In this document: in pieces, positions 30,249 through 39,886 of the stretch | Position numbering within the stretch: the first letter of the stretch is position 1 | Layout: every line of letters starts with the position of its first letter | From: Spartobacteria bacterium | GTDB lineage: Bacteria > Verrucomicrobiota > Verrucomicrobiia > Chthoniobacterales > UBA10450 | Length of the DNA stretch: 64,000 nt | Reading direction: 5' to 3' | Assembly: GCA_003167555.1 (NCBI GenBank) | Contig: PMSN01000004.1 | Coordinates: forward strand, 27,227-91,226 | The notes under the pieces: generated by a model | Told to the model about the DNA's origin: nothing | What the model saw: the letters and a program-made list of their open reading frames with translations, nothing else | Database searches by the model: none | Made by a program: the position numbers and the translations under genes

Positions 30249-31127
30249 TTACTTCTCTGCCGGCAGCGCCTGCTGCCAATCGAGAACGAGCTTCCACTCG
30301 CCCGCAGCGTCGGCCTGCCAGATCTGAAGATAGTGGCCTTGCTCTGTGCCTTTATCGCGCACGCTGGAATACTTGCCGTAAGCATAAGCCAGATCGGCCG
30401 ATTGGCTCATATCGCCTCCCAGCGATTCGAAAGACAGCTTGCCACCTGTCTCATTGAGCAATGAGCGGGCAGCATCCTTTCCGACAGAAGGGAAGTGGCC
30501 GTCGCGATAGACGCGGACCTCATCGGCTGCAACCGCGAGCGCGGCGGCGCACAAATCGGCCTTAGCCGCGTCGGCAAATTTTTGCTGCGCCGCACGCAAA
30601 TTCTTGCGCGCAGTTTCGAGACCGCCTGCAACCTTGGCGCGGTTGTCCGGCGCGACAGCCCGGAGCGGCCCTGGTTTGTTGGCTGGCTCGGGATTCTCGA
30701 TCCCGCAATCCAGCGCGACTTTCCATGAGCCATCCTTTTGCTTCTTCCAGATGGAAACAAATTGCCCGTGGCCGAGAAACTTCTCGTCCTTCTTGTTCGC
30801 TCTCCATTTGGCAGGTCCGGTGTCATAGCCAAAATCGCCGCTGCGCGCGATTGCGGCGAAGGTCGGTTCCCAAATCAGGTCCAGGCCATTCTCCGTGCGC
30901 TTACTCCAAGCCTCTTTGCCACTGACCGGGCCCGGCTGGAAAACGATCGCGTCATCCGCAAGAAAGGCGAGGAAGGCGGCGCGAGTGCCTTGTTCCTGGC
31001 CGGTCTGGTAGAATTTCCTTTCCGCATCCACCATGGCGCGGACCGCTTCCGCGGGTGTTTCCGCCCGGGCAACGACGCAGGTGAGCAGGACATACAGAAG
31101 CGAGAGTGAGCTCCGGCGCATTTGCAT
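30249..31127 (-). CDS. Secreted protein with two NTF2-like (SnoaL/DUF4440) domains
   Basis: About 292 aa with a signal peptide (LSLLYVLLTCVVARA). Two NTF2-like alpha-beta barrels follow: one at ~25-155 (AVRAMVDAERKFYQTG, DDAIVFQPGPVSGKEAW, GQFVSIWKKQKDGSWKV) and one at ~170-292 (LRAAQQKFADAAKADLCAAA, YGKYSSVRDKGTEQGHYL, IWQADAAGEWKLVLDW). The domains look like DUF4440/SnoaL family members, often of unknown function. I chose ATG 31127 because GGAAA lies 8 bp upstream and it begins the signal peptide; an ATG at 31145 is possible. Confidence 0.8.
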   Translation of the reverse strand: MQMRRSSLSLLYVLLTCVVARAETPAEAVRAMVDAERKFYQTGQEQGTRAAFLAFLADDAIVFQPGPVSGKEAWSKRTENGLDLIWEPTFAAIARSGDFGYDTGPAKWRANKKDEKFLGHGQFVSIWKKQKDGSWKVALDCGIENPEPANKPGPLRAVAPDNRAKVAGGLETARKNLRAAQQKFADAAKADLCAAALAVAADEVRVYRDGHFPSVGKDAARSLLNETGGKLSFESLGGDMSQSADLAYAYGKYSSVRDKGTEQGHYLQIWQADAAGEWKLVLDWQQALPAEK

Positions 31128-31164
31128 CTGATTGTTTCCAGTCATCGCCGCGATGCCAAGAAAC

Positions 31165-31210
31165 AAATGTAGAGGCTTTTCTTTTCCGGGAGTTCCACTA
31201 GAACGCTGGG
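31165..31210 (+). promoter_or_regulatory. 46-bp conserved upstream block of cyclase copy 1
   Basis: The 46 bp directly before ATG 31211 match the 46 bp before ATG 35782 with two differences. The block includes an A/G-rich AGAGG, CTTTTCTTTTCC, and an inverted repeat GTTC-CACTA-GAAC ending ~7 bp before the start codon. It is a candidate operator, promoter or leader element. Confidence 0.6.
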
Positions 31211-32068
31211 ATGGATTTGGACGAGGCGGGGGCCTGGCTGGAATCTCCTGGTCGCGAGCGCGTCCAAATTCACGGGAACTGTTCCTTGGGCAGATCGCTC
31301 AAGAGCTCTGTCGTCCTCGATTCGCCCAAGGTCTCGCGCCGTCATGCCGTCATCAATCTGCAAAATGTGGGCGAGTTCTGGCTTATCGATCTGGGCAGTA
31401 GCAACGGAACCTTGCTGAACAAGCGCCGCGTTCACCAACCGGTCCGGCTTTGCCACCTGGATCAGATCACGATAGGCGACGCTACCTTTACCTTTCGGCA
31501 GCCGGAGGAACTTTCCAATGAGTTCCGGACGACTTTGGCCGAGCGCACCATCCGTGAGACGGAGGACCTTCCCTGCTGGCTCCTTGTGGCCGACATCGAA
31601 AATTTCACGCCCTTGAGCCGCAGTCTGGTCAACGACAAGCTTGCCACCCTGATCGGAGGCTGGGTCTCCACCTGCAAGGAGATCATCGAAGAGCACCAGG
31701 GGATGATAAACAAGTATCTTGGTGACGGGTTTCTCGCTTATTGGCGGGAGGACGAAAAAGCGGCGGAGGATGTCGCCGCGGTGCTCGCTGCTCTCAAGCA
31801 AGTTCAGACCCAAAAGCCGCGCTTCAGGATCGCATTGCATTTCGGGTTGGTCGCAGTCGGCGGCATGGAGTCGATGGGGGAAGAGAGTTTGATAGGCAAA
31901 GAGGTCAACGTCGTTTTCCGAATGGAGAAGCTTGCCGGATCGCTAGGTATCGAATGCCTAACGAGTGCTGCCGCCAACGATAAGCTCGGGATATTGCTTC
32001 CCTCCCATTCAATCGGCTCCCACGAACTCAAAGGCTTCGAAGGGAAGTCCGAGTTCTTCAGTTGTTGA
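31211..32068 (+). CDS. FHA-domain class III nucleotide cyclase, copy 1
   Basis: The 285-aa cytoplasmic protein joins an N-terminal FHA phosphothreonine-binding domain (~18-95: SRRHAVINLQ, WLIDLGSSNGTLLN) to a class III adenylate/guanylate cyclase domain (~120-285). Metal Asp residues are in VADIENFTPLSR and YLGDGFLAYW. The transition-state pair Asn..Arg is present in GKEVNVVFRMEKLAG. It is expected to make cAMP or cGMP when recruited through FHA to a phosphorylated partner. The partner is plausibly the PEGA kinase encoded nearby. A paralogue is at 35782. Confidence 0.9.
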   Translation: MDLDEAGAWLESPGRERVQIHGNCSLGRSLKSSVVLDSPKVSRRHAVINLQNVGEFWLIDLGSSNGTLLNKRRVHQPVRLCHLDQITIGDATFTFRQPEELSNEFRTTLAERTIRETEDLPCWLLVADIENFTPLSRSLVNDKLATLIGGWVSTCKEIIEEHQGMINKYLGDGFLAYWREDEKAAEDVAAVLAALKQVQTQKPRFRIALHFGLVAVGGMESMGEESLIGKEVNVVFRMEKLAGSLGIECLTSAAANDKLGILLPSHSIGSHELKGFEGKSEFFSC

Positions 32069-32105
32069 AGCGGACAGGCCGATGTGCGAGAGAAAGTCGC
32101 ATTTA

Positions 32106-32603
32106 CTACCGTCGGAAAATCGCAGAAGGATTGCCGACAAATGGGCCCTTTAGGGCACCCGTCGCTGTTTTTCCGTCCGCATTTGGCGTCAACGTCCACG
32201 TATACTCCTTAAACCAGCCGGATCGCCATGTAATCGTTGTGCCGTCGCTCGAGACCTTCCTCGTCCCAGTTCCGAGTCTGGACTTTTCAATCACCGACGT
32301 TCCTGAAGGGTCAACCACAAGTGTGTACTCGACGTCCCCCCATATTCCGAACCCCTTAATTGTTCCAATCCAAGTCCCGGCAAAACGTGCCGGACCCTGT
32401 GTCGGTTTCGCGGGAGGTTTCGGGACAGTTTTCGTTTTGAATTCGGACTCGATCGATTTTGATTTCGATGGCGTCTTCTTCGGCCTGGCTGGCTGTGTCA
32501 GAGGCGGTGTCGGGCTTTCCGGAACTTCTTGAATCGGCGCGGGGAGCCGGTGAGCGGAAAACAGAAATAGAACCAGGCAAAACCACGGCCGTATGACTTT
32601 CAT
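32106..32603 (-). CDS. Small secreted beta-rich protein behind the kinase operon
   Basis: The 165-aa product has a signal peptide (VIRPWFCLVLFLFSAHRLPA), a Pro/Lys linker, then a ~95-aa beta-rich domain starting GPARFAGTWIGTIKG, with SGTSVIEKSR and TITWRSGW. The same GPARF.GTW opening and order of strands appear in the upstream gene. No catalytic motif is visible. Its ATG overlaps the stop of the preceding gene by 4 bp (ATGA), so the two are translationally coupled in the kinase operon. Confidence 0.75.
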   Translation of the reverse strand: MKVIRPWFCLVLFLFSAHRLPAPIQEVPESPTPPLTQPARPKKTPSKSKSIESEFKTKTVPKPPAKPTQGPARFAGTWIGTIKGFGIWGDVEYTLVVDPSGTSVIEKSRLGTGTRKVSSDGTTITWRSGWFKEYTWTLTPNADGKTATGALKGPFVGNPSAIFRR

Positions 32604-33433
32604 TGTGAAGTGACGCTGTAGGTGATCGTCATCGGGACCTCTCGTGGGCAGCCCGGAGTGGCGTGCCATTTCCGCAACGTCGCGATGGCGGCTTGATCGA
32701 GAATCGTTACGCCGGTGGATTGACGCACAGTCACGTCAATTAGGTTTCCCGTTGGTTTGTCGAAATGCAGGAGGTAGATACCTTGCCCGCTGTAGTGTTG
32801 GCCGCGCGCTTCCGGAGGGAGATCAGGACGGGGACCGGACATGGTCCCAGAAGGCGTCAAGGCTACGGAAACAGTGCTCGGGTTATCCGTGCTTGCTTGC
32901 GATGTTATCGCCGGGGTCTCTTTTGTGGCTGCAGGGGTGGTCGTGGTAACGGGCGCTGAACTTCGGTGCAATGTAGCCGTATTGCTTGCCAAAAGACCTT
33001 TGAGAGTCAATTGCGCCGTTTGGCCGTCGTTATTGAGAGTGAGGCTTGCGTTGCTGCCGAGTATGCCGGTGTTCCAGGAAATAGTATCGCCGCTTACCGT
33101 GGCCTCGTGCGTGCCGCCGCCCATGTTCTGGCTTACTTGCACCGAAGTAGCATCGGGATTGATAGTGAACGTGCCGATGACGTGGCCGAGAAGACCCTGA
33201 TTGATTTTTCCGCTCCACGTTCCCACAAACCGGGCAGGGCCTTGCAAGGGAGCCGGTGTAGAACGGGTCGTGGCAGTCTTCTCTTGCGAATAGGTTCGGT
33301 GCTGCGATTTCCGTTTGGCGGGCTGTTCCGTCGCCGGCGGTTTGTCCGGAGTTTCGACGATGGGCGCTGGAAGGCGATGTGACGCTGCCATCAGCAAGCC
33401 AAACGTGAGGCAAATGCGAATGGGTCGGTTCAT
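32600..33433 (-). CDS. Secreted beta-domain protein with C-terminal TonB-like domain
   Basis: The 277-aa product has a signal peptide (ICLTFGLLMAASHRLPA) and a GPARFVGTWSGKINQG beta-rich domain at ~60-155 like that of its downstream neighbour. A Thr/Ser/Pro linker leads to a C-terminal TonB-like domain (GIYLLHFDKPTGNLIDVTVR, LDQAAIATLRKWHATPGCPR). The same kind of TonB tail closes the lipoprotein at 134-1273. It lies 62 bp behind the kinase gene. It may sense or bridge at the periplasmic side of the kinase (inference). Confidence 0.8.
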   Translation of the reverse strand: MNRPIRICLTFGLLMAASHRLPAPIVETPDKPPATEQPAKRKSQHRTYSQEKTATTRSTPAPLQGPARFVGTWSGKINQGLLGHVIGTFTINPDATSVQVSQNMGGGTHEATVSGDTISWNTGILGSNASLTLNNDGQTAQLTLKGLLASNTATLHRSSAPVTTTTPAATKETPAITSQASTDNPSTVSVALTPSGTMSGPRPDLPPEARGQHYSGQGIYLLHFDKPTGNLIDVTVRQSTGVTILDQAAIATLRKWHATPGCPREVPMTITYSVTSQ

Positions 33434-33495
33434 GTTAAAAAAACGCCGTGAATGTTGCTGCGTTGCGCTACCTATGGCGGCGCCGAGAGCACTCT

Positions 33496-35679
33496 TCATG
33501 GCGTCAAAGTGGCGACATAAGTTTTTCCGTTGGCCTTGCATTCATAAATCCCGCCGGTGCCATCGGCGTTAAACTGGAGCGTAAAAGATTCCGGCTGCCA
33601 CTGAATGCCTGCCGGTTTGGAGACCACGTCGTCCGTCACAGCGTGCAAAGTTGTTCCATCCAGGACGCCCTTGAATTTTACTATCGTATCACCCTTCTTG
33701 CTGCCGTAGGTCATCGTACCGGATTTGCGGTCGGCTTCCAGTCTGACGGTTAGTGCCGTTCCCGGCCCGGCTTTGTCATCGGTGGCGCGAATCGTTCCCT
33801 TATAGGTCGCCGGCGAATTTACCGCTGAGATCGTCTGGCCGCTCAGCTTCGCGATATAAGCCTTTCCGCCGGCATTGCACTCGTAGGTCGCGCTACTTCC
33901 GTCAGAGGTAAAACGCAGGTTAAAGGACTCTGGTGTCCACCCAACCTTTGCCGGTTTGGAAATCACTTCATCAGTAACGGCGTGCAAAGTTGCTCCCTCC
34001 CAGATGCCGTTAAACTTCACCACCATATCGCCGCTCTTGCTGGTTTGGGTCATCGTACCAGATCGCCCGTCAGGATTCAGCTTGATACTCAAAGGCACGC
34101 CGGGGCTGCTGGAAGGATCGAGTGGAACCGAAATCATTCCTTTGTAAATGGCGGCCGGTTTGCTCAGCGCCACTGTGGCCTTGAACATCTCTTTGGGTGA
34201 AAGCGTTGCCTTCAATTCGCTGGGCAGATAACCCTCGAGCACTAACACGAACGTGGCCTCGCCAGCCGATAAGTCAGCGCGTTGGAATGGCGTGGTACCT
34301 AACAAGGTCGCGCCTCGAAAGACCTGCGCCCCGGCAGGAACACTGTTTAGCTCGATCGCCGACTTGGTGGCTTGCAGCGTGAGCGTGCCGAGATCGGTAA
34401 ACTCATTGCCTTTAATCTCGATATCTTTTTCAATAGTGTCGTAGCCGCTCAAGGCGATTCGCATTGGATATTTGCCGGGCCTAAGTTCTTTGAACGTCAC
34501 CGGACTTTTTCCCGCGGACGTGCCTCCCAGAGTCACAGTCGCTCCTTCCGGGGAAGTACTCACAATCAATCCGCCAAGCAGGATGGCCGGTCCCGGCGCT
34601 GCTAGGTCGGTCTTGATCGGCTCCGCGACAACGGTTGTCATCTGCGCGGGCTTTGGCGTCGAACGATAGAAACCAAAATACCAGATGCCCGCTGCCAGGA
34701 GGCAGAGAGCACCGGCCACACCCGCGACGATGCGGTAGCTCTGGCGCCGGGGTTTCGGGAGCGGCGGCGTCTTGCGCGTTTTCGTTTTCGGCGAAGCCAG
34801 GGCGAGATGGTCGGCGATGTGGGCGATCGATTGCGGCCGGCGCACCGGATCTTTCGCCAGACAGCTTGCCACCACCCGCTCCCAACTTTCGTCGATCCGG
34901 TCCCCCTCGATCTCGAGTTCCTTTCGCCGTTGCGTCATGCTGGGCGGGATTTTCTCGCGAATCTGCCGGTCGACATTTCCCGACGAAAAAGGCGGTCTGC
35001 CCGTTAGGAGTTCGTAGACGCAGGCGCCGAACGAGTAGATGTCGTCCAAGTGAGTGCCGCGTTCGCCGTCGAGCTGCTGCGGGCTCATGTAAACGAGGGT
35101 GCCGCTCTTCCCGTGCTGCATCGTCACCTTGCTCATCGAGTCGCTTAAGCTGCGGGCAATGCCAAAGTCGGTTACCTTGAGGTCGCCGCGCTGATTCACC
35201 ATGAGGTTCGCCGGTTTGAGATCCCGGTGAATGATGCGCGCGTGATTATGCGCGTAATCGAGCGCATCGCAGAGCTCGCTCGTCCAATCGGTCAGTTCCG
35301 GAATCTCAAAGACTTTGCGCGGTTTGTCCGCGCGCAAATTGGAAAGCGTATCGCCGTCGACGTATTCCATCGAAATGCAGCCCGATTGCCCGTCATGCAC
35401 AAAATCATGAATGCGGACGATGTTCTTATGCGTGAGCTCCAGGCTGCGGCGGGTCTCGCGTTTCAGATCCGACAAGACCGCGCGATCGTGCACGATCAGC
35501 TCAGGCAAAAACTTGAGTGCGACCTCGCGTTCGAGTTCCTCATCGCGAGCCAGCCAGACGACGCCCATGCCGCCGCGGCCCAACGTCTTGATAAGCGTGT
35601 AACGGCCAAAAAGCTTCTGCCCGCCAGAAAATTCTCGCAGGGTAGCATCGAGCCCATTGCTCGAAGTCTCGGCACTCAC
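33496..35679 (-). CDS. Membrane Ser/Thr protein kinase with two PEGA domains and tandem C-terminal repeats, copy 1
   Basis: A 727-aa bacterial Hanks-type kinase. Kinase domain ~25-290: GRGGMGVVWLA loop, VALKFLPEL Lys, IIHRDLKPANLM, VTDFGIAR, GTLVYMSPQQ. TM helix at ~313-335. Outside: PEGA 1 (~367-437, SPEGATVTLGGTSAGKSPVT), PEGA 2 (~439-505, SVPAGAQVFRGATLLGTTPF), then two ~105-aa repeats (~508-619 and ~621-727). Each repeat runs YKG..I...GTMT..S..GD..VKF.G...TLHAVTD...SKPA. Starts at GTG 35679, 102 bp from the divergent second cyclase gene. Confidence 0.92.
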   Translation of the reverse strand: MSAETSSNGLDATLREFSGGQKLFGRYTLIKTLGRGGMGVVWLARDEELEREVALKFLPELIVHDRAVLSDLKRETRRSLELTHKNIVRIHDFVHDGQSGCISMEYVDGDTLSNLRADKPRKVFEIPELTDWTSELCDALDYAHNHARIIHRDLKPANLMVNQRGDLKVTDFGIARSLSDSMSKVTMQHGKSGTLVYMSPQQLDGERGTHLDDIYSFGACVYELLTGRPPFSSGNVDRQIREKIPPSMTQRRKELEIEGDRIDESWERVVASCLAKDPVRRPQSIAHIADHLALASPKTKTRKTPPLPKPRRQSYRIVAGVAGALCLLAAGIWYFGFYRSTPKPAQMTTVVAEPIKTDLAAPGPAILLGGLIVSTSPEGATVTLGGTSAGKSPVTFKELRPGKYPMRIALSGYDTIEKDIEIKGNEFTDLGTLTLQATKSAIELNSVPAGAQVFRGATLLGTTPFQRADLSAGEATFVLVLEGYLPSELKATLSPKEMFKATVALSKPAAIYKGMISVPLDPSSSPGVPLSIKLNPDGRSGTMTQTSKSGDMVVKFNGIWEGATLHAVTDEVISKPAKVGWTPESFNLRFTSDGSSATYECNAGGKAYIAKLSGQTISAVNSPATYKGTIRATDDKAGPGTALTVRLEADRKSGTMTYGSKKGDTIVKFKGVLDGTTLHAVTDDVVSKPAGIQWQPESFTLQFNADGTGGIYECKANGKTYVATLTP

Positions 35680-35735
35680 GCCGGGAGGTTAGCGACCCGG
35701 AATCCTGGGATAAAGCACAAAATGGCGACGTGCAT

Positions 35736-35781
35736 AAATGTGGAGGCTTTTCTTTTCCGCGAGTTCCACTAGAACGCTGGG
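35736..35781 (+). promoter_or_regulatory. 46-bp conserved upstream block of cyclase copy 2
   Basis: Same 46-bp block as at 31165-31210 with two substitutions, including GTTC-CACTA-GAAC at 35763-35775. Here it lies in the 102-bp divergent region between kinase 1 (minus) and cyclase 2 (plus), so it could serve both promoters. Confidence 0.6.
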
Positions 35782-36639
35782 ATGGATTTGGAAGAAGCGG
35801 GAGCCTGGCTGGAATCACCCGGTCGCGAGCGCGTCCCACTTCGTGGCAACTGCTCGATCGGCCGCTCGCCTAAGAGCGCTGTCGTCCTCGAGTCCCCCAA
35901 GACCTCGCGCCGCCATGCCATTATCAATCTGCAAAACGTCGGCGAGTTCTGGCTCATCGATCTGGGCAGCAGCAACGGGACCTTCTTGAACAGGCGCCGC
36001 GTTCATCAGCCCGTCCGGCTTTGCGACATGGACCAGATCACCGTCGGCGACGTGGCCTTCACCTTTCGGCAGCCCGAGGAAATTACCAACGAGATGCGCA
36101 CGACGATGGCCCAGCAAACGATTCGCGAGACCGCGAACATTCCTTGCTGGCTCCTCGTGGCCGATATCGAAAATTTCACGCCGCTCAGCCGGAGCATGGT
36201 GAGCGACAAGCTGGCCACGCTCGTCGGCGTCTGGGTCGCGACCTGCAAGAACATCGTCGAAGAGCAGCACGGCGAGATCGACAAATATCTGGGCGACGGC
36301 TTCCTCGCCTACTGGCACGACGACGAGAAGGGCGCGGAAAATCTCGCGACGGCGCTGCAGAAGCTGAAGGAGATTCAGAAGAACGAGCCGCGCTTCCGGC
36401 TGGCGTTGCACTTCGGGCTGGTCTCGAGTGGTGGCCTCCGCTCGATGGGCGAGGAGAGCTTGATCGGCCGCGAGGTCATCTTTGTTTTTCGGATGGAAAA
36501 ACTGGCCGGGTCGTTAGGCGCGCATCTGCTCGCGAGCGAGCCGGCGCGGACAAAGCTGGGCGCACTTGTCCAATTTCAACCGGCTGGGTCTTACGACCTC
36601 AAAGGCTTCGAAGGCACCTTCGAGTTCTTCAAGAGCTGA
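35782..36639 (+). CDS. FHA-domain class III nucleotide cyclase, copy 2
   Basis: The 285-aa paralogue of the gene at 31211 has the same length and layout: FHA with SRRHAIINLQ and WLIDLGSSNGTFLN, cyclase with VADIENFTPLSR and YLGDGFLAYW. It differs at the transition-state motif. EVNVVFR in copy 1 reads EVIFVFR here, so the catalytic Asn is an Ile while the Arg is kept. Activity may be lowered, or the protein may have become a partner of copy 1. Divergent from kinase 1. Confidence 0.9.
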   Translation: MDLEEAGAWLESPGRERVPLRGNCSIGRSPKSAVVLESPKTSRRHAIINLQNVGEFWLIDLGSSNGTFLNRRRVHQPVRLCDMDQITVGDVAFTFRQPEEITNEMRTTMAQQTIRETANIPCWLLVADIENFTPLSRSMVSDKLATLVGVWVATCKNIVEEQHGEIDKYLGDGFLAYWHDDEKGAENLATALQKLKEIQKNEPRFRLALHFGLVSSGGLRSMGEESLIGREVIFVFRMEKLAGSLGAHLLASEPARTKLGALVQFQPAGSYDLKGFEGTFEFFKS

Positions 36640-36640
36640 C

Positions 36641-36715
36641 CTGTAGCGGCGGTCTCTGACCGCCGAACGAGTCTTCCCAAGGCATGAATCCGGCGGTCAG
36701 AGACCGCCGCTACAG
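36641..36715. repeat. Palindromic repeat CTGTAGCGGCGGTC ... GACCGCCGCTACAG
   Basis: An extended inverted repeat starting 2 bp after the cyclase 2 stop and ending just before the convergent gene's stop. The outer arms equal the hairpin at 11283-11313; here a ~30-nt centre separates them. It probably ends transcription in both directions. Confidence 0.7.
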
Positions 36716-36725
36716 TCAGAGACGG

Positions 36726-37304
36726 TTACTTGGCGCGGCGATAGATGACGGCGTTGGGATCGTTGACTCTGCTCAACTCGTCTCCCTTCAGCGTGTAGAC
36801 AGACGTCTCCGCGGTCGGCGCGCCGTAGCTATCGATGGTGGCGTTCGGGATCGTTTTCGGAGTCCAATCCGCCAACTGGCCCGGCGACCATTGGATGGTA
36901 AGGCTCGTGCCCTGTTCGTTCAGGTCGACCGCGTTGTAGGTCCACTTCCTATGCAGCTCGTAGATGGTGCCATAGAAAGGCTTCTCGGGCGTCGACGCGT
37001 TTGAGGTATCGAGCGTCTTGGTGGCCTTACCTTCCTTGATCACCAGAGTGAAGGTGCGGCTGATCACCTGCTGTGCGTCCGGGTTGTTCTTGTTATCCGT
37101 GGCCAGCCAGGTGCCATCGAATTTGTGCGAGGCATGCTTCGTTGTGGATTGTTGTCTGGGTTGCTGGTTGCGACGCGGCGCCTGGGTAGGTCTTTGGGTT
37201 CGATCGACAAACATCTTTATGACACTGTCGATCTGCGCCGGAAGCGTCGAAGCTGTTCCTGGCAACAGTAGGATTGGTAGCAGGTATTTGATCGTTCTAT
37301 TCAT
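36726..37304 (-). CDS. Small secreted protein of the second kinase operon
   Basis: About 192 aa with a signal peptide (YLLPILLLPGTASTLPAQ), a Gln/Arg/Pro linker (~35-58) and a beta-rich domain opening HKFDGTWLATDN, later RTFTLVIKEGKA, SLTIQWSPGQLADWTPK and NDPNAVIYRR. The position behind kinase 2 and the FxGTW opening match the proteins behind kinase 1, although overall similarity looks weak. GGAGG precedes ATG 37304. The kinase stop overlaps this ribosome-binding site, which suggests coupling. Confidence 0.72.
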   Translation of the reverse strand: MNRTIKYLLPILLLPGTASTLPAQIDSVIKMFVDRTQRPTQAPRRNQQPRQQSTTKHASHKFDGTWLATDNKNNPDAQQVISRTFTLVIKEGKATKTLDTSNASTPEKPFYGTIYELHRKWTYNAVDLNEQGTSLTIQWSPGQLADWTPKTIPNATIDSYGAPTAETSVYTLKGDELSRVNDPNAVIYRRAK

Positions 37305-37311
37305 GGCGTGG

Positions 37312-38781
37312 TTAACCTCCGGAGAATTCATTGATAGGAACCGTTTGACCTGGCGGAGCGGCTGATGGCATGACTGTCGGCATAACGGATGGTTCCGGCT
37401 TGTTGTCAGTCAGTGCAGTCGGCTTGCTTCGTTGCAGCGTGATCGTTCCCAGGTCGAGAAACTGACTCGCTTTGACTTCTACCTCCCGGTCGAATGGCGC
37501 ATAACCGTTGAGTGTTATATGAAGCTGATACTTACCAGCGAGAACTCCTTTGAACGTGATAGGACTCTTGCCCGCATCGAGTCCTCCCAGGGTAACAGTC
37601 GCACGCGACGGAGAGGTATTAACGATCACGCCGCCGAAGCCATTTGCTCCCGGCTCTTCGGGAGCGGCGGTCGCAGCCGGAGTCGGTTTCACCACCACTG
37701 CCGGAGTCGATTTCGTTGATTTGAGAAATCCGAAATACAAAATGGCAATGGATCCGATTAGAAGCAGGAGAAGCGCGGCAGCACCTCCCGCGATGAGCAC
37801 GATTCGGTTGGAGAACAGAGAGGCCGGTTTCGGAAGGGGAGGCGGCACGTCCGTCTTGGGTTGGGCGATCGGCTGAGCGCGGACTGTTTTCGGCGAAGCG
37901 ATTTCCAACCGCTGCGCCACCTCCGCGAACGATTGCGGCCGCCGTGCCGGGTCCTTGGCCAGGCAGGCCGCCACGACTTTCTCCCAATTCTCGTCAATTA
38001 GCTCGCCCTCCACCTCTAAATCTTTGCGCCGCGCTGCCATCGACGGCGGAATTTTTTCCCGGATCTGCCGATCGACATTCCCCGAGGAAAAAGGCGGCTT
38101 GCTCGTGATGAGTTCGTAGATCGTCGCGCCGAAGGAATAAACGTCGTCGAGATGAGTGCCGCGTTCGCCATCGAGTTGCTGAGGACTCATGAAAACCAGA
38201 GTCCCGCTCCGCCCCTGCTCCATCGTGAGCATGCTGACCGAATCGCTCAGGCTGCGCGAAATGCCGAAGTCCGAAACCTTGAGATCGCCGCGCGTATTCA
38301 CCATCAGGTTGGCCGGCTTCAAATCCCGGTGAATGATGCGCGCATGGGTGTGCGCGTAATCGAGCGCATCGCAGAGCTGGCTGGTCCATTCGTTCAGCTC
38401 GTGCGCTTCAAAAACCTTGTGCGGTTTGTCCGCGCGTAAATTCGAAAGCGTGTCGCCGTCGACGTATTCCATCGAGATGCAGCCTGATTGGTCGCTATGC
38501 ACGAAATCGTAAATGCGGACGATGTTCTTGTGGGTCAGGTCCAGACTCCGGCGAGTCTCGCGTTTCATATCGCCCAGCACCGCGCGGTCATGGATGATCA
38601 GCTCGGGAAGGAATTTGAGTGCGACGTTGCGCTCGAGTTCGTCGTCGTGGGCCAGCCAGACGACGCCCATGCCGCCGCGGCCGAGCGTCTTGATCAGAGT
38701 GTAGCGATTGAAGACTTTTTGCCCGTTGGCAAAGTCTCGCGTCGTCGCATCCAAACCATTACCGGCATTCTCGCCACTCAC
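37312..38781 (-). CDS. Membrane Ser/Thr protein kinase with one PEGA domain, copy 2
   Basis: The 489-aa paralogue of the kinase at 33496 has a very similar kinase domain (GRGGMGVVWLAHDDELERN, VALKFLPEL, IIHRDLKPANLM, VSDFGISR, GTLVFMSPQQ). It has a TM helix at ~325-348 and one PEGA domain (~380-450: TSPSRATVTLGGLDAGKSPI). It lacks the second PEGA and the tandem C-terminal repeats of copy 1 and ends in a short Pro-rich tail. GTG 38781 aligns exactly with the GTG start of copy 1; the frame is open further upstream but without homology. Confidence 0.9.
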   Translation of the reverse strand: MSGENAGNGLDATTRDFANGQKVFNRYTLIKTLGRGGMGVVWLAHDDELERNVALKFLPELIIHDRAVLGDMKRETRRSLDLTHKNIVRIYDFVHSDQSGCISMEYVDGDTLSNLRADKPHKVFEAHELNEWTSQLCDALDYAHTHARIIHRDLKPANLMVNTRGDLKVSDFGISRSLSDSVSMLTMEQGRSGTLVFMSPQQLDGERGTHLDDVYSFGATIYELITSKPPFSSGNVDRQIREKIPPSMAARRKDLEVEGELIDENWEKVVAACLAKDPARRPQSFAEVAQRLEIASPKTVRAQPIAQPKTDVPPPLPKPASLFSNRIVLIAGGAAALLLLLIGSIAILYFGFLKSTKSTPAVVVKPTPAATAAPEEPGANGFGGVIVNTSPSRATVTLGGLDAGKSPITFKGVLAGKYQLHITLNGYAPFDREVEVKASQFLDLGTITLQRSKPTALTDNKPEPSVMPTVMPSAAPPGQTVPINEFSGG

Positions 38782-38843
38782 GCTCTTGAGATTAACGCAG
38801 GGCCGCCGCGCATAAAGCAAAAAAATGAGGGCCGTCCAAGGAG

Positions 38844-38863
38844 CGGCGGTTTCCAAACCGCCG
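38844..38863. repeat. Hairpin CGGCGGTTT-CC-AAACCGCCG
   Basis: A perfect 9-bp inverted repeat in the divergent region between kinase 2 and the aspartyl-protease-like gene. The wider text CCAAGGAGCGGC.GTTT.CAAACCG recurs at 5359-5382, so it is another dispersed repeat. Confidence 0.55.
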
Positions 38864-38965
38864 TGGGCGATTTGTAATTCGCCCTTCCCTGTTCCGCCCC
38901 ATCGCAAGAAACGTTCGCGCGTCCAGACAAATCCCGCCCTCGGCGGCGTCTTCACTCCAACGACG

Positions 38966-39886
38966 ATGGAACACACGCTGCGCCGATTCTTCCGACTCTT
39001 GAGACCATTACTGGTCCTGGCCGCCATCGTCACGTGGATCTCTGGGCGCGCGCAACTGGCCCATTCCGCTGACGCCGCCCCGAAACTTCCCGTCGAGATC
39101 CCGATGCAGACCGAGGGCGGCATGCCCACGATCGAACTGATGGTGAACGGCCAGGGCCCGTTCCTTTTCGGAATCGACACCGGCGCGCAGGCCGGGACGC
39201 GCATCGATTCATCGCTCGTGGAGAAGCTCGCGCTCAAGCCGTCCGGGCAAGTCCAGGCGACCGATCCCTCCGGACGAAATCCGCAGACGATCGATACCGT
39301 CAAGCTCGACTCCATTGTCATCGGCAATCTCCGCTTCGCCGATGTCACCGCCGCTTCGCGCAACTACAAGAACTCTCCGCGCCCTATGAAAGTGGACGGT
39401 ATTCTCGGCCTGAGCCTCTTCGCCGAATATCTCGTGACCCTCGATTTTCCCGCGAAGCTATTGCGGATCGACCGCGGCGAATTGCCCAAGGCCGACGGCG
39501 CCGAAATCCTCGATTACAAAAATGAGGGCGGCGTTCCGCTGGTCGAGTTGACTGTCGGCAGCGCGAAGATCGATGCCCATCTCGATTCCGGAAACGCGAT
39601 CGGCGCTTTCGTTCTTCCCACCGCCTTTGTGGAGAAGCTCGCCAAGGCCTCCGAGCCGGTCGTAGTCGGCAAAGCGCGAAGCGCGAGTGGCGAGATGGAG
39701 ATCAAACAGGTTCAACTCAAGGACACCTTGCGCCTGGGCCGTCACGAATTTCCGCAACCCACAATCACCTTTCCGGCTCTCGGCGAGGTCGGGAACGTCG
39801 GCGTCAAGACTCTCAGCCAATTTGCTGTCACGTTCGATCAGCAACACAATCGCGTCCGCCTGACGCGCCTCGAAGTTAAACATTAG
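38966..39886 (+). CDS. Secreted retropepsin-like aspartyl protease family protein
   Basis: The 306-aa product has a signal peptide (LRPLLVLAAIVTWISGRAQL..SADA) and two aspartyl-protease-like lobes: lobe 1 with FLFGIDTGAQAGTRI (DTG), lobe 2 with DAHLDSGNAIGAFVLP (DSG). GILGLSLFAEYLVTLDFPAK and LSQFAVTFDQQHNRVRL are typical C-terminal strands of each lobe. This is the bacterial PDZ-less aspartyl protease family, whose substrates are unknown. Divergent from kinase 2. I chose ATG 38966 for the signal peptide. Confidence 0.85.
   Translation: MEHTLRRFFRLLRPLLVLAAIVTWISGRAQLAHSADAAPKLPVEIPMQTEGGMPTIELMVNGQGPFLFGIDTGAQAGTRIDSSLVEKLALKPSGQVQATDPSGRNPQTIDTVKLDSIVIGNLRFADVTAASRNYKNSPRPMKVDGILGLSLFAEYLVTLDFPAKLLRIDRGELPKADGAEILDYKNEGGVPLVELTVGSAKIDAHLDSGNAIGAFVLPTAFVEKLAKASEPVVVGKARSASGEMEIKQVQLKDTLRLGRHEFPQPTITFPALGEVGNVGVKTLSQFAVTFDQQHNRVRLTRLEVKH

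Follow-up and report, generated by a model that had tools for sequence, protein, structure and literature searches.

What joins a Hanks kinase to an FHA-class III cyclase when the two are encoded side by side, twice in succession? The question is raised by a 64,000-nucleotide (nt) stretch of a Spartobacteria bacterium genome (GCA_003167555.1, contig PMSN01000004.1, positions 27,227 to 91,226, forward), here called the window, within which all positions are numbered. Positions 31211 to 38781 hold two tandem sets, each consisting of an FHA-cyclase, a PEGA-kinase, and one or two secreted-type proteins. The kinase/FHA-cyclase module is real, conserved, and duplicated, and a threonine motif, TxR[DE], occurs in it twice, C-terminal to the FHA domain of the cyclase (T113) and in the N-terminal tail of the kinase (T13). 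We see an about even chance that the kinase recruits the FHA-cyclase through phosphothreonine (pThr) in this tail and then phosphorylates the motif in the cyclase linker, which the FHA domain would grip, controlling the cyclase dimer. Judged by analogy, the module likely combines docking like that of PknG with FHA gating like that of DgcB, with a predicted adenylate cyclase as the output.

The kinase/cyclase pair and its conservation

In the first set, cyclase 1 (31211..32068, + strand) is followed by two secreted-type genes, sec1 (32106..32603, -) and sec2 (32600..33433, -), and by kinase 1 (33496..35679, -). The second set contains cyclase 2 (35782..36639, +), a single secreted-type gene, sec3 (36726..37304, -), and kinase 2 (37312..38781, -). 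Kinase 1 lies head-to-head with cyclase 2 across a gap of 103 nt, so that the pairings overlap. This order and these strands are those described in a sequence-only reading of the locus, and they are borne out by the open reading frames (ORFs) and by Pfam matches to FHA (7e-20 and 1e-19 in the two cyclases; residues 25 to 89 in cyclase 1), Pkinase (3e-49 in both kinases; residues 27 to 291 in kinase 1 and 27 to 283 in kinase 2), and PEGA. The PEGA matches were above the cut-off (3e-22 and 2e-12 in the two kinases) and lie beyond the kinase domain and a single transmembrane (TM) segment recognized by eye; kinase 1 has two PEGA stretches, and in kinase 2 PEGA occupies residues 383 to 442. The Hanks motifs VALKFLP, HRDLKP, and DFG are present in both kinases, and the catalytic motifs are intact.

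The cyclase was detected in 32 of 98 related genomes (E ≤ 1e-30); we collected the stretches around the matches and mapped the kinases in them by phmmer (>80 bits). A kinase lay within 3 kb of 30 of the 41 cyclase ORFs, a count that includes the window's two and fragments; six had none despite 3 kb on both sides, and the five others without one were cut by contig ends. Among the ORFs with 3 kb available on both sides, 19 of 25 had a Hanks kinase within that distance, and the chance that a random spot in the genome lies less than 3 kb from a kinase is ∼3% (estimated from 15 genes and 4.2 Mb). Of the 30 paired cyclases, 29 have at least one kinase encoded on the other strand. The order in the window's genus is convergent, with cyclase, sec3, and kinase (loci L050 and L052 to L057); in the other genera, kinase and cyclase genes usually stand head-to-head. 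A search of 194 genomes of the phylum gave four matches at E ≤ 1e-40, and the only two from outside the family, both class-level relatives with 36% identity, each have a kinase within 2 kb. Across the 98 genomes, the cyclase (E ≤ 1e-50) and the orthologous kinase (E ≤ 1e-70) occurred together in 20, the cyclase alone in 4, the kinase alone in 7, and neither in 67, an association that relatedness inflates.

The neighborhood of FHA-cyclase and PEGA-kinase genes is thus kept in relatives, an outcome in favor of the sequence-only reading, which a loss of the pairing would have contradicted, with the qualification that the kinase ectodomain is not always PEGA. Nine kinases were scanned for ectodomains: L049, L074, and L075 have PEGA; L059, L061, and L072 have TPR, accompanied by TolB_N or a weak FlgO match; L080 and L085 have Sel1; and L078 has none. 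The kinases of L078, L080, and L085 are neighbors of distant cyclases and bear only a remote resemblance to the window kinases (90 to 110 bits), so that in part the whole pair, and not the ectodomain alone, has changed.

A threonine motif in cyclase linker and kinase tail

Between the FHA and cyclase domains of cyclase 1, the motif reads TIRE (T113 to E116; 31547..31558, +), and the alignment places the same letters in cyclase 2 (T113 to E116; 36118..36129, +). The N-terminal tails carry TLRE in kinase 1 (T13 to E16; 35632..35643, -) and TTRD in kinase 2 (T13 to D16; 38734..38745, -). T113 is Thr in all 152 near sequences with a letter at this position, mostly within T[IL]RE, and it is the only unchanged column between residues 96 and 122 of these sequences. 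Among the 120 listed homologues, 116 have the full cyclase motif, as do 22 of 33 near loci, one of which lacks linker letters. On the kinase side, the best 120 of 3262 homologues of kinase 2 were scored, except for one with no recognizable P-loop; the tail Thr is present in 118 of these 119 and TxR[DE] in 115. The stretch before the kinase domain in the other kinases of the genome has no such motif (0/12). We also tabulated 28 of the 30 pairs with the pattern T.R[DEG], omitting L049, whose cyclase is cut, and L054, whose kinase is cut before the tail. Both proteins carry the pattern in 16 pairs, the kinase only in 4, the cyclase only in none, and neither in 8 (5 of them distant and one without a linker).

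In the FHA domain, R28, S42, H45, and N65 are present in 120 of 120 listed homologues and G27 in the alignment, so that the pThr-binding residues are intact. Lys40, two residues before the FHA Ser, corresponds to the residue of Rad53 FHA1 that reads an acidic residue at +3, and it is kept in 113 of the 120 listed homologues, in all 30 near sequences that have a letter there, and in 0 of 8 distant sequences. The available part of PMC5549992 supports the roles of the FHA phosphate-binding residues and of the pThr +3 position, but not the role of the residue at the place of Lys40. An activation-loop Thr is also kept in the kinases (Ser in L074 and L076); in the window kinases it lacks an acidic residue at +3. 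From these sequence features we prefer the kinase tail over the activation loop as the FHA ligand, with the loop as a possible second choice, and we take the shared TxR[DE] Thr as a concrete candidate site for the kinase-to-FHA step.

In the mechanism that we propose, a signal from outside would reach the kinase through its PEGA ectodomain, with the co-encoded secreted barrel proteins probably acting as co-sensors, and the kinase would autophosphorylate at T13. The FHA domain would then bind pT13, with Arg28 and Ser42 contacting the phosphate, Asn65 the peptide backbone, and Lys40 the acidic +3 residue. Phosphorylation of T113 in the cyclase linker would follow, and the FHA domain might grip the phosphorylated linker of its own or the partner subunit, bringing the cyclase dimer under control. 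We suppose that this switch turns the synthesis of cyclic AMP (cAMP) on, a direction chosen by analogy with DgcB; it might instead be off.

It is important to note that several observations weigh against this mechanism. The resemblance between the two motifs was spotted post hoc, and R at +2 together with D or E at +3 has a chance of 0.8% per Thr on composition. None of the 8 distant loci has TxR[DE] in the cyclase, an N-tail is missing from the kinases beside the 5 distant cyclases in the pair table, and the motif is absent from both cyclase linker and kinase tail of the two class-level relatives. Even among 21 near pairs (excluding L072, where the neighboring kinase is of another type, and L077, which has no linker letters), an exact TxR[DE] is missing from the cyclase in 5 (L061, L062, L064, L069, and L075). 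Conversely, the tail Thr is kept in kinases with no adjoining cyclase, as TxRE in L131, in one kinase of L132, and in L139, and as TxRG in L133 and L135, and some of these cyclase-free kinases come from genomes in which our search found no such cyclase. The tail may therefore be there for FHA readers other than the cyclase, or for the kinase itself. A lone third cyclase in the window's genome keeps TIRE without a cognate kinase, and no PP2C phosphatase match (PF13672 or PF00481) rose above the cut-off in this genome; two SpoIIE-type phosphatase matches were found on its contig C7. The kinases of L134, L138, L140, and L142 also carry the tail Thr, on contigs that end too near to judge the neighbor. 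The idea that the tail motif is unique to paired kinases was rejected, since cyclase-free kinases carry it.

The alternative that survives best, although we consider it rather unlikely, is simple recruitment: the FHA domain would dock the cyclase on the phosphorylated kinase, at the tail or the activation loop, regulation would come from location or contact, and the linker Thr would be structural. The intact FHA residues, the conserved pairing, and the conserved kinase tail Thr are in line with this explanation. It also gains from the model of cyclase 1, in which a helix is predicted at residues 103 to 114, adjoining the cyclase core; T113, at its end, could be structural, a further point against linker phosphorylation. 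However, T113 stands alone as an invariant column in its stretch, with R at +2 and E at +3 as in the kinase tail, and the model gives residues 113 to 116 some of its lowest confidence values (predicted local distance difference test score of <50), as expected of a flexible motif.

An improbable alternative is that the neighbors have regulation or a regulon in common, with the FHA domain reading other phosphoproteins and the tail Thr being an autoregulatory site of the kinase family. The retention of the tail Thr in kinases with no cyclase alongside speaks for it, as do the six cyclases without a nearby kinase despite sufficient flanks. Yet the pairs lie on opposite strands and are kept across families despite changed ectodomains, which one shared transcript would not give, and the co-occurrence of the two proteins across genomes also speaks against it, though this co-occurrence is inflated as said above. 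We keep the docking-and-gating mechanism as the preferred reading.

Catalytic residues of the two cyclases

The assignment of both proteins as class III cyclases in the sequence-only reading held up better for cyclase 1 than for cyclase 2. The Pfam cyclase domain in cyclase 1 is barely above the cut-off (22.7 versus 21.9 bits), and its predicted fold matches the class III cyclases CyaC, Cya2, and OaPAC (Foldseek); cyclase 2 has no Pfam cyclase-domain match. Such proteins are common in sequence data, with 3286 at E ≤ 1e-10 among 7996 scored candidates, the weaker of which may share single domains only. In class III cyclases, the residues corresponding to D128 and D172 bind metal, and those corresponding to Asn233 and Arg237 stabilize the transition state. 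Every one of the 120 listed homologues retains the metal residues D128 and D172 along with Lys168, Ser226, and Arg237. At residue 233, the same set has 49 Asn, 69 Ile, 1 Ser, and 1 Phe. All six residues are present in cyclase 1, including both transition-state residues (N233 and R237), and cyclase 2 has I233 in place of the Asn and retains R237 in the alignment.

A quick tree of 89 rows combined every second homologue of the list with 29 near loci, 4 fragments being omitted. The loss of Asn233 falls in a single clade of 40 of the 89 rows (Ile in 38, Phe in 1, and Ser in 1), with a Shimodaira-Hasegawa-like approximate likelihood ratio test (SH-aLRT) value of 99, and cyclase 1 and the out-group lineages retain the Asn. 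The cyclase domain of the Asn-less lineage had a median ratio of nonsynonymous to synonymous differences (pN/pS) of 0.19 (7 sequences compared in 21 pairs, the synonymous sites being close to saturation), and this purifying selection indicates that the domain is still used. That the cyclase 2 lineage lacks the catalytic Asn nonetheless weighs against the mechanism above.

The combination of Lys168 and Ser226 points to ATP as the substrate. On these residues alone, cyclase 1 is predicted to be an active enzyme whose product is more likely cAMP than cyclic GMP (cGMP), and cyclase 2 may be slow, regulatory, or noncatalytic. The sequence-only reading had left the output as cAMP or cGMP; cAMP is now favored for cyclase 1 by this residue rule, and for the cyclase 2 lineage, without its transition-state Asn, the claim is weakened. 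A more ambitious version of our proposal is a complete two-gene transmembrane kinase-to-cAMP switch, in which one FHA domain would read the same pTxR[DE] ligand in tail and linker, docking would hand over to phospho-linked cyclase dimers, and duplication of the set would have given an active cyclase and an Asn-less partner; this version we advance tentatively, with the chances somewhat against it. Another alternative, quite unlikely in our view, is that the cyclase domains, in the cyclase 2 lineage at any rate, produce no cyclic nucleotide and serve as scaffolds or inhibitors under phospho-regulation: the missing Pfam match of cyclase 2 and a single loss of Asn233 in a clade still under purifying selection speak for it, and against it stand the metal Asp residues, the substrate Lys, and the Arg in every listed homologue and the Asn retained by cyclase 1 and the out-group lineages.

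The cyclase of L058 (G005:C30) has no kinase within 3 kb, an altered metal-site loop, and TMRQ in the linker, and is perhaps decaying.

Known systems and genome context

The first-ranked Foldseek match of the cyclase 1 model is DgcB (E, 2e-10; TM-score, 0.31). Bdellovibrio DgcB is an FHA-GGDEF diguanylate cyclase activated by its own FHA-bound phosphopeptide, and in the available part of the report its switch is solved while its kinase is not identified (PMC6733907). Both systems join an FHA domain to a second-messenger cyclase, and control of the enzyme by its own pThr peptide, demonstrated in DgcB, is predicted here. They differ in output (GGDEF and cyclic di-GMP in DgcB, a class III cyclase here) and in the pThr motif, which lies in a tail N-terminal to the FHA domain in DgcB and C-terminal to it here. 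Here a kinase gene adjoins the cyclase, and this candidate would fill the place of the kinase still missing for an FHA-controlled cyclase.

The docking step resembles that of PknG, in whose N-terminal tail autophosphorylated Thr residues recruit the FHA substrates OdhI and GarA, which are then phosphorylated on a tail motif, according to the available part of PMC8546545. Tail-Thr docking followed by phosphorylation of the FHA protein is shown there and predicted here. The PknG substrate is a metabolic regulator with ETTS in its N-terminal region, whereas here it would be a cyclase with TxR[DE] after the FHA domain; the window cyclases have no ETTS-type tail before FHA, the Pfam match beginning at residue 25. 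PknG has TPR and no PEGA, and the window kinases have PEGA beyond the TM segment (by eye). Hanks kinases are also coupled to class III cyclases in fusions such as Myxococcus Pkn2 (PMC1262709, in the part available) and the TOMM kinase/cyclase family TIGR03903. Those are single chains and here the genes are separate; kinase 1 falls below the TIGR03903 cut-off (88 of 705.75 bits).

With DgcB (PMC6733907) and PknG-OdhI/GarA docking (PMC8546545) as close mechanistic precedents in the parts of those sources available, the statement in the sequence-only reading that no named system has this combination was too strong, and its interpretation as a whole is partly supported. Our literature search, judged by titles and the opening of abstracts and by the available parts of PMC1262709, PMC12034629, and PMC7291507, found no FHA-class III cyclase paired with a kinase, although subscription journals were mostly outside its scope and absence in print is unproven. 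What is new here is the TxR[DE] Thr motif common to the cyclase linker and the kinase tail. With a candidate kinase beside the cyclase and one predicted pThr motif common to them, the entire path from outside signal to second messenger could be examined using just two proteins and a handful of point mutations. Should the proposal prove true, bacteria would have their own counterpart of the receptor kinases that switch on a docked second-messenger enzyme.

The secreted-type proteins have likely starts at signal peptides recognized by eye (32603 for sec1, 33433 for sec2, and 37304 for sec3). Sec1 is related to sec2 (phmmer, 95 bits) and has no Pfam or NCBIfam match; sec2 carries a TonB_C domain besides the region that the two have in common. 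The model of sec3 is an eight-strand barrel, and its nearest structures, VtrC and ToxS, belong to the periplasmic pairs VtrA/VtrC and ToxR/ToxS, in which a lipocalin-like periplasmic barrel forms a complex with a membrane partner. Kinase 1 ends in two tandem C-terminal repeats recognized by eye (33499-34167), which have no convincing Pfam match. Homology of the sec proteins to these repeats was unsupported (hhalign probability, 47% over 31 columns for sec1/sec2 and 0.4% for sec3).

The nearest named relatives of the 4.2-Mb genome are metagenome genomes of Spartobacteria and other Verrucomicrobia. It has four FHA matches above the cut-off, three of them in FHA-cyclases (including the lone third copy), 16 Pkinase matches read as 15 genes, 7 cyclase-domain matches, and 11 cyclic nucleotide-binding matches, of which 10 are above the cut-off. 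The third cyclase, close to cyclase 2, stands alone at G000:C18:67834-68688 (locus L048). A broken kinase ∼1.3 kb upstream was rejected as its cognate kinase, being of another type and without the tail motif.

A DUF4440 gene and an aspartyl-protease-like gene border the module (30249-31166 and 38825-39886). Relatives of the DUF4440 gene also lie beside the cyclase in L050 and L054 to L057, and a relative of the aspartyl-protease-like gene does so in L050 only. At L075/L143 (G007:C1:97209-115008), six kinases of the window kinase family stand in a same-strand row adjoining a more distant (42%) FHA-cyclase; this row is an expanded kinase array.

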